Assembly (NCBI GenBank): GCA_938003745.1
Contig: CALKXS010000065.1
Coordinates: 1-39,730 of the forward strand
Length of the DNA stretch: 39,730 nucleotides
DNA from: an uncultured Algibacter sp.
Lineage (GTDB): Bacteria > Bacteroidota > Bacteroidia > Flavobacteriales > Flavobacteriaceae
Reading direction: 5' to 3'
The position numbers were made by a program, and so were the translations under genes. Shown one piece after another: positions 18,249-23,614 of the stretch (the stretch's first letter is position 1; each line of letters begins with the position of its first letter). Under the pieces are notes generated by a model, which saw nothing but the letters and a program-made list of their open reading frames with translations, ran no database searches and was not told where the DNA came from.

Positions 18249-20771
18249 ATGCAAAAACAATTACTTGTTGTTATTTTATCGTTATTTATATGCGTTTCTA
18301 GTCAAGCGCAGCAACCAAAAACACCTTCATCTTCCCAAATTTTTGAATCTATTGAAAAGCTTAACTTTTTAGGCTCTGTATTATATGTTGCAGCACATCC
18401 AGATGATGAAAACACCCGATTAATTTCATACATGGCCAACAAGGTAAAGGCACGAACCGCATATTTATCATTAACACGTGGAGATGGCGGTCAAAACCTA
18501 ATAGGCCCAGAAATTAGAGAACTTTTAGGAGTCATTAGAACTCAAGAATTATTAGCCGCTCGTAGAGTTGACGGGGGTGAACAATTATTTTCTAGAGCTA
18601 ATGATTTTGGGTATTCTAAACACCCTGATGAAACTTTAGATATTTGGGATAAAGACGAAGTACTTAGCGATGTCGTTTTAGCAATTAGAAAATTTAAACC
18701 AGACGTTATTATAAATAGATTTGATCATAGAACACCAGGTACTACACATGGTCACCACACAACTTCAGCCATGTTAAGCGTAGAAGCTTTTGATTTAGCA
18801 AACGATAATTCTGCATACCCAGAACAACTAAAAAAAACGTCTTTATGGCAACCCAAACGTGTGTTTTTTAACACCAACAGTTGGTTTTATAAAAGTCAAA
18901 AAGATTTTGATAATGCAGATAAATCTAATATGCTAAGTTTTGATATTGGTGTATACTATCCTTTAAAAGGATTATCAAATAACGAATTAGCTTCTTTAGC
19001 CAGCAGTCAACACTTATGCCAAGGTTTTGGACGTCTATCACAACGGGGTAATCAAAAAGAATATATAGAATTTTTAAAAGGAGATCCCATAACTAATAAC
19101 AAAGATCTTTTTGAAGGCATTGACACCTCATGGAATCGTATGGAAGACGGAAAAGCTATTGGAAATATTTTAAATAATATTGAAGAAAATTTCAATTTTA
19201 AAAACCCTTCTTCTCATATAAATGATTTATTAGAAGCATACAAACTACTTCAAAAAGTAGAAAATAAGCACTGGAAAGTTCAAAAAACTAAAGAATTGAA
19301 AGCCATCATAGAAATGTGTATGGGCTTATATTTAGAAGTTTCAGCAACAACTAATTGGGCAACACAAAATGAAACTATTAAATTAAACATTGAAGTTCTA
19401 AACAGAAGTAATACATCAATTCTACTAGAAAGCATTAATAACACCGATGATTTAAAAATATCCAAAAACTTAGAACTTAAAGACAATAGAAAATTTGCTT
19501 TTAAAGAAGACTTAAAAGTTAACAACAATCAAAAACCTACAACACCTTATTGGCTTGCCGAAAAAGGAACTTTAGGCATGTATAAAGCCGATAAAAATTT
19601 AATTGGATTACCAGAAACTCCAAGAACACTATTTATAGATTTTAACTTGGTAATTAACAAAACACCTATAACCATAACAAAACCTGTAATACAACGCTTT
19701 GCAAAACCAGATAAAGGCGAGTTATATCGTCCGTTTGAGATTATTCCAGAAGTTTCTGCTAAAATTGCTGAAAAAGTAATCATTTTTGAAAACGATAAAC
19801 AACGAGACGTTAATGTTATTGTTAAGGCTGGACGAAACAATTTAGAAGGTTACGCCGAAATTTGCTATCCAAAAGACTGGACTGTATACCCAACTAAGCA
19901 AAAAATAGATATTAAAAATAAAGGAGAAGAGCAAACGCTTGTTTTTACTATAATTCCTCCAAAAAACCAAAATGAAGGCTTTGTAGGTCCAATTATAACT
20001 ATTGGAGATAAAAAATATTCAAAAGAATTAATAGAAATTGAATACGATCATATTCCTTTTCAAACCGTACTACTTCCAAGCGAGACTAAAGTAGTTCGTT
20101 TAGATATTCAAAAACGCGGAGAAAACATTGCTTACATTCAAGGTGCTGGTGATGTTGTTCCTCAAAGTTTACAACAAATAGGTTATAATGTTAGAATTAT
20201 AGCTCCAGATGAAATAAACGCAGAAACCTTAAGTAGGTTTGATGCTGTGGTTGTTGGTGTTAGAGCATACAATACCGTTGATGATTTAAAATTTAAGCAA
20301 CAACAATTATTTGATTTTGTTGCCCAAGGCGGAAACATGATTGTACAATACAATACCAGTTATCGCTTAAAAGTTGATAAAATTGCTCCATATGAATTAA
20401 AGCTTTCTAGAGATCGTGTTACTGATGAGCATGCAGAAGTTAAAATATTAAACGCAGATCATCCTATTTTAAATTTCCCTAATAAAATCACTCAAAATGA
20501 TTTTAAAGATTGGACTCAAGAACGTGGTTTATATTTTCCAAAAACATGGGGAAAAGAATTCACCCCTATTCTATCTATGCATGATAAAAATGAATCTCCA
20601 AAAAAAGGAAGTTTATTAGTCGCAAAACACGGAAAAGGGCATTACATATACACGGGATTAAGCTTCTTTAGAGAATTTCCAGCGGGAGTTTCTGGAGCTT
20701 ATCGCTTATTTGCTAATATGCTATCTATAGGTGAAAATGATATTAAAACAGAAAAACCTATAAAAAATTAA
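18249..20771 (+). CDS. Large secreted PIG-L/LmbE family deacetylase
   Basis: 840 aa with signal peptide; YVAAHPDDENTRLISYMANKVKARTAYLSLTRGDGGQNLIG...FDHRTPGTTHGHHTTSAM. Confidence 0.9.
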   Translation: MQKQLLVVILSLFICVSSQAQQPKTPSSSQIFESIEKLNFLGSVLYVAAHPDDENTRLISYMANKVKARTAYLSLTRGDGGQNLIGPEIRELLGVIRTQELLAARRVDGGEQLFSRANDFGYSKHPDETLDIWDKDEVLSDVVLAIRKFKPDVIINRFDHRTPGTTHGHHTTSAMLSVEAFDLANDNSAYPEQLKKTSLWQPKRVFFNTNSWFYKSQKDFDNADKSNMLSFDIGVYYPLKGLSNNELASLASSQHLCQGFGRLSQRGNQKEYIEFLKGDPITNNKDLFEGIDTSWNRMEDGKAIGNILNNIEENFNFKNPSSHINDLLEAYKLLQKVENKHWKVQKTKELKAIIEMCMGLYLEVSATTNWATQNETIKLNIEVLNRSNTSILLESINNTDDLKISKNLELKDNRKFAFKEDLKVNNNQKPTTPYWLAEKGTLGMYKADKNLIGLPETPRTLFIDFNLVINKTPITITKPVIQRFAKPDKGELYRPFEIIPEVSAKIAEKVIIFENDKQRDVNVIVKAGRNNLEGYAEICYPKDWTVYPTKQKIDIKNKGEEQTLVFTIIPPKNQNEGFVGPIITIGDKKYSKELIEIEYDHIPFQTVLLPSETKVVRLDIQKRGENIAYIQGAGDVVPQSLQQIGYNVRIIAPDEINAETLSRFDAVVVGVRAYNTVDDLKFKQQQLFDFVAQGGNMIVQYNTSYRLKVDKIAPYELKLSRDRVTDEHAEVKILNADHPILNFPNKITQNDFKDWTQERGLYFPKTWGKEFTPILSMHDKNESPKKGSLLVAKHGKGHYIYTGLSFFREFPAGVSGAYRLFANMLSIGENDIKTEKPIKN

Positions 20772-20814: not shown

Positions 20815-20934
20815 ATGGAAGAATCTAACCAACCAAATAAAGAAAAATACAAATGGAACGCTATGTACACCATTGTATTAATTACAAATATCATCTATTT
20901 CGTTGCTTTTTATTTTATAACCAAAGCCTTTTAA
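20815..20934 (+). CDS. 39-aa single-TM micropeptide upstream of the symporter
   Basis: Below ORF-track cutoff: MEESNQPNKEKYKWNAMYTIVLITNIIYFVAFYFITKAF; charged N-terminus plus one TM helix; ends 3 nt before the symporter ATG. Confidence 0.75.
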   Translation: MEESNQPNKEKYKWNAMYTIVLITNIIYFVAFYFITKAF

Positions 20935-20937
20935 AAC

Positions 20938-22650
20938 ATGCAAACTTTAGAATGGATAGATTGGACGGTTTTAGCTATAACCCTATTAACTATTGTTGGT
21001 TACGGTACTTGGCAAACACGAGGAAGCAAAAATGTAAAAGATTACCTAAAAGGTGGTAGCAATTCTAAATGGTGGACTATTGGTTTATCTGTTATGGCAA
21101 CACAAGCCAGTGCGATTACTTTTTTATCTACACCAGGACAAGCTTTTAATGACGGCATGGGCTTTGTTCAATTTTATTTTGGTATTCCTATTGCTATGAT
21201 TGTTATATGTATGGTGTTTATTCCACTATATCATCGTTTAAAAGTATATACAGCTTATGAATTTCTAGAAAATAGATTCGATCTTAAAACAAGAACATTA
21301 ACCGCAATACTGTTTTTAATTCAAAGAGGGTTAGCTGCGGGCATTACAATTTTTGCACCAGCTATTATTTTATCCGTTGTACTGGGTTGGGACTTATTGC
21401 TCTTAAATATTTTTATTGGGGTTTTAGTGATTATTTATACCGTTTCTGGAGGTACACGCGCAGTAAACGTTACCCAAAAACATCAAATGGTTGTTATTTT
21501 TATAGGTATGTTAATTGCTTTCTTTTTAATTGTAGATCAGCTACCTCAAGACATCACATTTTCTAACGCACTAGACATTGCTGGAGCAAATGGTAAAATG
21601 GAAATATTAGATTTCTCTTTCGACCTTAATAACCGTTATACATTTTGGAGCGGTATAATTGGTGGAACTTTTTTAATGTTATCCTATTTTGGAACAGATC
21701 AAAGTCAAGTACAACGTTACTTGTCTGGTAAATCAATTAGAGAAATGCAATTAGGTTTAATATTTAACGGAATACTAAAGGTGCCTATGCAATTCTTTAT
21801 TTTGTTTGTTGGGGTTATGGTTTTTATTTTTTACCAATTTAATCAAACTCCTGTTAACTTTAATCCAACTGCTATTGAAGCTGTTTTAAATTCTAAATAT
21901 GTCAAGGAATATAAATCACTACAAAAGCAACAAGAAACACTCTTTATTGAAAAGCAACGATTAATAAAATCGTTTATTGATTCAAACTCACCAGAAACAA
22001 CAGAACAAATAGCGTTATCAAATAATGCAAATGATGCTATAAGAGCTAAGGCTAGAGATTTAATTAACAAAGTAGCAAAAGAGCAAGATATAAAAGTAGA
22101 AAGTAATGATAAAGATTATGTATTTATTCATTTTATACTAAACAACCTACCAAGAGGTTTAATTGGGTTATTATTAGCTGCTATTTTAAGTGCAGCTATG
22201 TCTAGTACAGCGAGTGAATTAAATGCTTTAGGATCAACAACAACAATAGATTTATACAAGCGAAACGCTAGCGAAAAAACTGAAGATGAAATGGTAAAGG
22301 CATCAAGATTGTTCACATTTGCTTGGGGAATTATTGCCATTGGTGTAGCTTGTGTTGCCAATCTTGCAGAAAATCTTATTCAGCTCGTAAATATTATTGG
22401 TTCTATATTCTACGGTAATGTACTAGGTATATTTTTATTGGCCTTTTTCTTTAAACACGTAAAAGGAAATGCTGTGTTTCATGCAGCACTTATAACCCAA
22501 GTTCTTGTCATTGCTCTTTTTCTATTAAATGAGTATGAAATAATAAACCTTCCTTTTTTATGGTTAAACTTTGTAGGTTGTGCTATAGTAATCTTTATCG
22601 CATTAATTCTACAAACATTCCTTAAAAATGACAAAATAATTACAACCTAA
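20938..22650 (+). CDS. Sodium:solute symporter (SSS family)
   Basis: 570 aa; multi-TM; IGLSVMATQASAITFLSTPGQAFNDGMGFVQFYFG; GGTRAVNVTQKHQ; AAMSSTASELNALGSTTTIDLYKR. Confidence 0.92.
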   Translation: MQTLEWIDWTVLAITLLTIVGYGTWQTRGSKNVKDYLKGGSNSKWWTIGLSVMATQASAITFLSTPGQAFNDGMGFVQFYFGIPIAMIVICMVFIPLYHRLKVYTAYEFLENRFDLKTRTLTAILFLIQRGLAAGITIFAPAIILSVVLGWDLLLLNIFIGVLVIIYTVSGGTRAVNVTQKHQMVVIFIGMLIAFFLIVDQLPQDITFSNALDIAGANGKMEILDFSFDLNNRYTFWSGIIGGTFLMLSYFGTDQSQVQRYLSGKSIREMQLGLIFNGILKVPMQFFILFVGVMVFIFYQFNQTPVNFNPTAIEAVLNSKYVKEYKSLQKQQETLFIEKQRLIKSFIDSNSPETTEQIALSNNANDAIRAKARDLINKVAKEQDIKVESNDKDYVFIHFILNNLPRGLIGLLLAAILSAAMSSTASELNALGSTTTIDLYKRNASEKTEDEMVKASRLFTFAWGIIAIGVACVANLAENLIQLVNIIGSIFYGNVLGIFLLAFFFKHVKGNAVFHAALITQVLVIALFLLNEYEIINLPFLWLNFVGCAIVIFIALILQTFLKNDKIITT

Positions 22651-23614
22651 AACTATAAAATAGGGTATTATTAGGCTTGGAAACATAGCTCATAAATTTG
22701 CTCAAGATTTATTAACTATTGATAATACAGAGTTATATGCCGTAGCATCAAGATCTCAAGAAAAGACCAATGATTTTGCATTAAAATACAAAGCAGTCAA
22801 AGGCTATAATAGTTATGAAGCATTATCTAAAGATTCAAATATAGATGCCGTTTATATAGCAACACCACATGCGCTTCATAAAGAAAACACCATATTGTGT
22901 TTAGAAAATGAAATAGCTGTTTTATGTGAAAAACCGTTTGCTATAGATGCAGGAGAAGTCAATGAAATGATTGCTAAAGCGAAAGAAAAAAACATACTTC
23001 TTATGGAAGCGCTTTGGACTTACTTTTTACCTCACTATCAATTTGTTTTAAATACCGTAAAAGATAAAACCTATGGTAAGGTTCTAAAACTAGAAGCTGA
23101 TTTTGGTTTTTACCGTGCTTTTGATAATTCATCAAGATTATTTAATAAAACTCTTGGAGGCGGTAGTCTTTTAGATATTGGTATCTACCCCATTTTCGCA
23201 GCTTTATCTACTTTAGGCATTCCTAATAGTATTAATGCAAAAGCAACTAAATTTAAAAATGGTGTTGACTCTTCATGTTGTATAACTTTCAATTATAAAA
23301 ACGACGTTACCGCTATTTTAAAAAGCACACTACTAGAAGACACTCCAACTCACGCTATATTTCATTGCGAAAAAGGGATAATAAAGATTAATACTCAGTT
23401 TCACGCACCTTCAAACGTTACTATTACATCAAATGGAAAAGAAGAAACTATCAGTTTTCCCAATGACGCCATTGGTTACAAATACGAGACGCTTCATTTT
23501 AACGATTTAATACGTCAAGAAAAAAAAGAAAGTAACATTATGAGTTTTGAATTTAGTAAACAACTTATAAAGACTTTAGATGATGTTAAATCACTTATAA
23601 AACTTCAATATTAA
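22649..23614 (+). pseudogene. Gfo/Idh/MocA family oxidoreductase, 5' end disrupted
   Basis: Frame of ORF 22895-23614 extends upstream: KTIK*GIIRLGNIAHKFAQDLLTIDNTELYAVASRSQEKTNDFALKY...YIATPHALHKENTILCLENEIAVLCEKPFA; in-frame TAG at 22661-22663 and no start codon before the NAD-binding motif. Confidence 0.75.

Follow-up and report, generated by a model that had tools for sequence, protein, structure and literature searches.

SSS transporters are usually viewed as single-protein machines, yet SGLT2 requires a one-helix partner. SGLT2 belongs to the same superfamily and needs the single-TM protein MAP17 (PDZK1IP1) for transport, with the MAP17 helix packing on TM13 of the transporter (PMC10803289). 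Several bacterial SSS genes also have small neighbours that are unexplained. In E. coli the pairs YhdT-PanF (DUF997) and YjcH-ActP (DUF485) are each encoded with the small gene just 5′ of the SSS gene and overlapping it. DUF4212 (PF13937) is a small membrane protein encoded directly upstream of SSS genes. The NCBIfam family NF045580 (symport_access, 33 positions) carries the name 'symporter small accessory protein' and is presumably encoded beside SSS genes. Bacterial microproteins that bind or modulate transporters include AcrZ, MgtS, MgtU and SgrT, and the sole SSS entry in the review covering them is the PII-type protein SbtB (PMC10710835).

The peptide described here is encoded immediately upstream of an SSS gene for a sodium-driven nutrient transporter in an uncultured Algibacter sp. 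(contig CALKXS010000065.1; the whole analysed stretch of 39,730 nt is called the window). Judged from sequence comparison, it would form a new family within a known kind, the small accessory proteins of SSS symporters. It shares with DUF4212 the location directly 5′ of the symporter, a charged N-terminus and a WK motif, but the DUF4212 protein is larger (~85 aa, family ~80–100 aa), has two hydrophobic segments or TM helices and accompanies another SSS subfamily. DUF4212 is absent from the Pfam matches of the peptide at E ≤ 10, and hhalign aligns the two at 5% probability (E 0.0075 over 25 columns). A DUF4212 gene in the source genome (L192, G000:C58:6188-6418) overlaps the 5′ end of another SSS gene, so small SSS neighbours of two unrelated kinds are present in a single cell. 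YhdT (80 aa) and YjcH (104 aa) are both larger than the peptide, with an hhalign probability below 1% and no Pfam match of the peptide to DUF997 or DUF485, and DUF997 was not found in the 21 genomes searched (the source genome and relatives).

NF045580 is likewise very short, and the peptide also adjoins an SSS gene. Its model matches none of 27 peptides at E ≤ 10, a search in which the HMMER filters may drop weak matches, and finds nothing at E ≤ 0.001 in the 297 Bacteroidota genomes; it does match the control archaeon Methanosarcina acetivorans. Human MAP17 resembles the peptide as a single-TM protein paired with an SSS/SLC5 transporter. It differs in being eukaryotic and in binding TM13, a helix apparently missing from the symporter studied here; no homology is claimed. 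AcrZ, MgtS, MgtU and SgrT are akin to it in size and topology but serve other transporter classes. Pfam and NCBIfam give only chance-level matches for the peptide (DUF2976, TIGR03745 and others), PHROGs gives none and the PDB none that is meaningful, and searches of the open-access literature found no description of it.

The micropeptide gene and its symporter

The reading frame has 39 codons, from the ATG at 20815 to the TAA at 20932-20934. It begins 43 nt after the stop codon of the PIG-L gene (20771), and 3 nt separate its end from the symporter ATG (20938), so that the length, coordinates and spacings of the initial annotation are all exact (Table 1). Among the 25 ATG ORFs of at least 150 aa in the window, the symporter gene alone is preceded by a small hydrophobic ORF, defined as one of 25–60 aa that ends at the start codon and whose hydropathy over 19 residues peaks at 1.5 or higher.

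Table 1. Coordinates of the micropeptide gene and adjoining features in the window
Feature	Position	Strand	Basis or remark
39-aa single-TM microprotein, predicted N-in/C-out	20815..20934 (including stop codon)	+	ATG ORF, conservation, pN/pS
3-nt spacer AAC, peptide stop to symporter start	20935..20937	+	near enough for translational coupling
SSS (SLC5-type, PF00474) symporter, 570 aa, ~13 TMs, conserved partner gene	20938..22650	+	
PIG-L domain protein, N-terminus resembling a signal peptide; commonly but not always the upstream neighbour	18249..20771	+	

The peptide had been described as having a charged N-terminus and one TM helix, and both features hold. Its hydropathy maximum is 2.0 in a 19-residue window, three K/R residues precede the hydrophobic stretch and one follows it, and residues 16–38 are helical in an AlphaFold2 model, at low confidence. 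Across loci the peptides measure 30–54 aa and have a single hydrophobic segment, with K/R averaging 3.25 on the N side of the helix versus 0.52 on the C side. The excess of K/R on the N side predicts an N-in/C-out topology.

The symporter is a PF00474/TIGR00813 protein; among solved structures its closest relatives are SMVT, NIS, SMCT1, SiaT, vSGLT and SGLT1/2. Hydropathy marks 12 segments, and inspection by eye adds the FWSGIIGGTFLMLSYFG segment as one more, giving ~13 TMs (TM0–TM12) with the N-terminus outside. Because of the positive-inside counts, the symporter N-terminus and the peptide C-terminus would both face the periplasm. Between the segments at 279–297 and 407–425 lies a long charged loop of 109 residues (~298–406; window 21850-22130) containing 15 K/R.

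Distribution and the neighbour that the peptide follows

A symporter search of 40 relatives yielded 27 ortholog loci including the window, at 44–100% identity, and in 27/27 an ATG ORF of 30–43 aa with the same pattern lies directly 5′ of the symporter. In a second set of 80 loci from named Flavobacteriaceae genomes (Algibacter, Flavivirga, Polaribacter, Olleya and others) the reading frame is kept at every locus and starts with ATG in 79 of the 80; in the remaining one, L095, the frame is present with TTG as its sole start. A profile built from the 27 peptides was then run against 297 genomes drawn across Bacteroidota and gave 93 matches in 92 genomes, one each save for one genome with two. 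Gene annotation probably overlooks the peptide in about one third of Bacteroidota genomes (92/297 in this draw). Two profile matches (G304, G200) are weak and at chance level. On the same strand and no more than 97 nt upstream of the orthologous SSS gene lie 87 of the 93 matches, and conservation over these three sets is well in excess of chance. The linkage is that of an operon; at most junctions the genes lie a few nt apart or overlap by 4 nt, with outliers to ~90 nt. At two loci (L143, L144) a second small hydrophobic ORF of 65–66 aa lies just 5′ of the micropeptide gene, overlapping it or nearly so.

Counted from the symporter side (matches at E ≤ 1e-80), 29 of 116 places have no adjoining profile match. 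Inspection by eye reveals a divergent 1-TM ORF in the equivalent position at 20 of these, which leaves 9/116 symporter places with no adjacent copy; the peptide is therefore not strictly essential to every ortholog. Among these nine, one genome has the peptide 108 kb from the symporter. In three related genomes (L150, L152 and L153; G174, G182 and G151) the peptide is absent and the PIG-L gene directly abuts the symporter, and these are natural losses. At L172 and L173 (G138, G076), also among the nine, peptide and symporter are on the same strand but the peptide lies ~15 kb upstream, as if an insertion or rearrangement had separated the two.

The upstream gene encodes a PIG-L protein in 160/187 loci. 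The peptide-symporter pair is retained in the other 27/187, where the upstream gene is different or not recognised; at a few loci with divergent peptides, Pfam identifies WbqC, class-V aminotransferase, short-chain dehydrogenase and SnoaL-like/DUF4440 proteins. No small hydrophobic ORF lies directly upstream of the start of 12 other SSS paralogs in five genomes. Since the pair persists with other upstream genes and the 12 paralogs lack the ORF, the peptide, as far as gene neighbourhood tells, is tied to this SSS subfamily and neither to the deacetylase nor to SSS genes generally.

Selection and the conserved helix face

The initial annotation had named equal evolution of synonymous and nonsynonymous sites as an outcome that would refute it, and the peptide does not show it. 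A counting estimate over 25 independent pairs (non-overlapping closest pairs) gives pN 0.101, pS 0.492 and pN/pS 0.206 for the peptide, by comparison with pN 0.061, pS 0.566 and a ratio of 0.108 for the symporter. As synonymous divergence is close to that of the symporter, the constraint sits on the amino acids of the peptide. The coding sequence is conserved, and the ORF is a real gene under strong selection. The frame is short and below the usual annotation cut-offs, as an untranslated chance ORF would be, but conservation across the phylum, a pN/pS of 0.21 and the conserved residues refute that reading, and its probability is practically negligible.

The same constraint bears on a role in cis, in which the ORF would be a leader delivering ribosomes to the start codon of the symporter or taking the message to the membrane, its product being minor. 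Junctions are very tight and 4-nt overlaps are frequent, as such a leader would have. Against it stand the constraint on amino acids, residue-specific invariants and the helical pattern, together with synonymous sites that diverge nearly as much as those of the symporter (pS 0.49 vs 0.57), and this role is very improbable.

Residues W14, N25, Y28 and F32 are invariant among 80 sequences, and Y18, L22 and Y33 are nearly so. In the wider set of 184 sequences W14, Y18 and F32 are near-invariant, while N25 and Y28 vary by clade. Along the helix, entropy is most strongly periodic at 100 degrees per residue (permutation p 0.007), and the conserved positions 14, 18, 21, 25, 28, 32, 35 and 39 form a 4-3 repeat. 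Together, W14, Y18, V21, N25, Y28, F32, I35 and F39 make up a single helix face that is almost invariant. Such periodic conservation would be expected of a membrane helix with one face packed on a protein partner.

The conserved face does not by itself point to one partner and could also reflect self-association or another partner. The helix might bind the PIG-L protein, which is encoded upstream in most loci, itself or another membrane protein. This is judged improbable, since the peptide persists without PIG-L and almost always with this SSS subfamily, and PIG-L stays beside the SSS gene without the peptide in the three related genomes mentioned above.

Likely role beside the symporter

The peptide is probably a constitutive single-helix accessory subunit of one SSS subfamily. 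It would be a single-pass inner-membrane microprotein, oriented N-in/C-out and translated just before the symporter from a common message, co-transcription being suggested by the spacing. The conserved face of its helix would pack against the symporter, although binding and stoichiometry are inferred, and the peptide may support stability, membrane assembly or full activity of the symporter. An effect on transport is proposed by analogy with MAP17 on SGLT2 and with the neighbours of panF and actP.

A regulatory micropeptide comparable to AcrZ, MgtS, MgtU and SgrT would instead bind the symporter and tune its specificity, inhibit it or control its turnover. The size and topology of the peptide match that class, whose action on transporters is documented (PMC10710835). 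Stress regulators are made separately, whereas this peptide has its gene in cis at essentially all copies of the symporter, placed for co-translation at a fixed ratio. Regulation of this kind is unlikely, though it deserves real weight. A fixed subunit is favoured over a stress-induced regulator because almost all symporter copies have the gene in cis, in a position to be translated just before them.

The AlphaFold2 model was made from a read-through fusion in which the TAA of the peptide was entered as Gly so that the frame continues into the symporter, with 59 rows in the alignment. Its mean pLDDT of 62.8, with ~50 over the peptide, is too low for the helix to be positioned, and a tether of 2 residues would bias its position. 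Mutual information was computed from 184 peptide-symporter pairs with an effective number of 71. The top pairs join N25 and Y28 of the peptide mostly with symporter positions 483–494 and 521 (TM10/TM11) and are confounded by clade. Most co-varying positions change only 6–9 times each on the tree (Y28 of the peptide 21 times), so the co-variation may be phylogenetic. A more specific proposal has a little less than an even chance: the peptide would be an obligatory single-helix subunit of one Bacteroidota SSS subfamily, from an undescribed phylum-wide family. It would be a bacterial counterpart, in function, of MAP17 on SGLT2 and might pack near TM10/TM11.

Of the original proposal of a transporter accessory subunit or regulator, the conserved small partner has strong genomic support, as the peptide follows the SSS gene across Bacteroidota even without the deacetylase, is missing from the 12 paralogs, is under purifying selection and has a conserved face. 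Physical binding is putative, the model being of low confidence and the co-variation clade-confounded, and the peptide may act as an obligatory subunit, a stabiliser or a regulator. A conserved 39-aa partner that is easily deleted and accompanies its symporter throughout a phylum is well suited to studying why certain LeuT-fold transporters require an additional helix. Should the peptide be a subunit, attempts to express these symporters in a heterologous host may fail when it is left out.

The PIG-L neighbour alone hints at a substrate and suggests amino sugars or other de-N-acetylated products. On the other side of the symporter, a gene for a Gfo/Idh/MocA oxidoreductase (window 22628-23614, + strand) overlaps its 3′ end and has two in-frame stops near the N-terminus. 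In the relative L095 the frame is open where the window copy has these stops; the window copy may be broken or reflect an error in the assembly.
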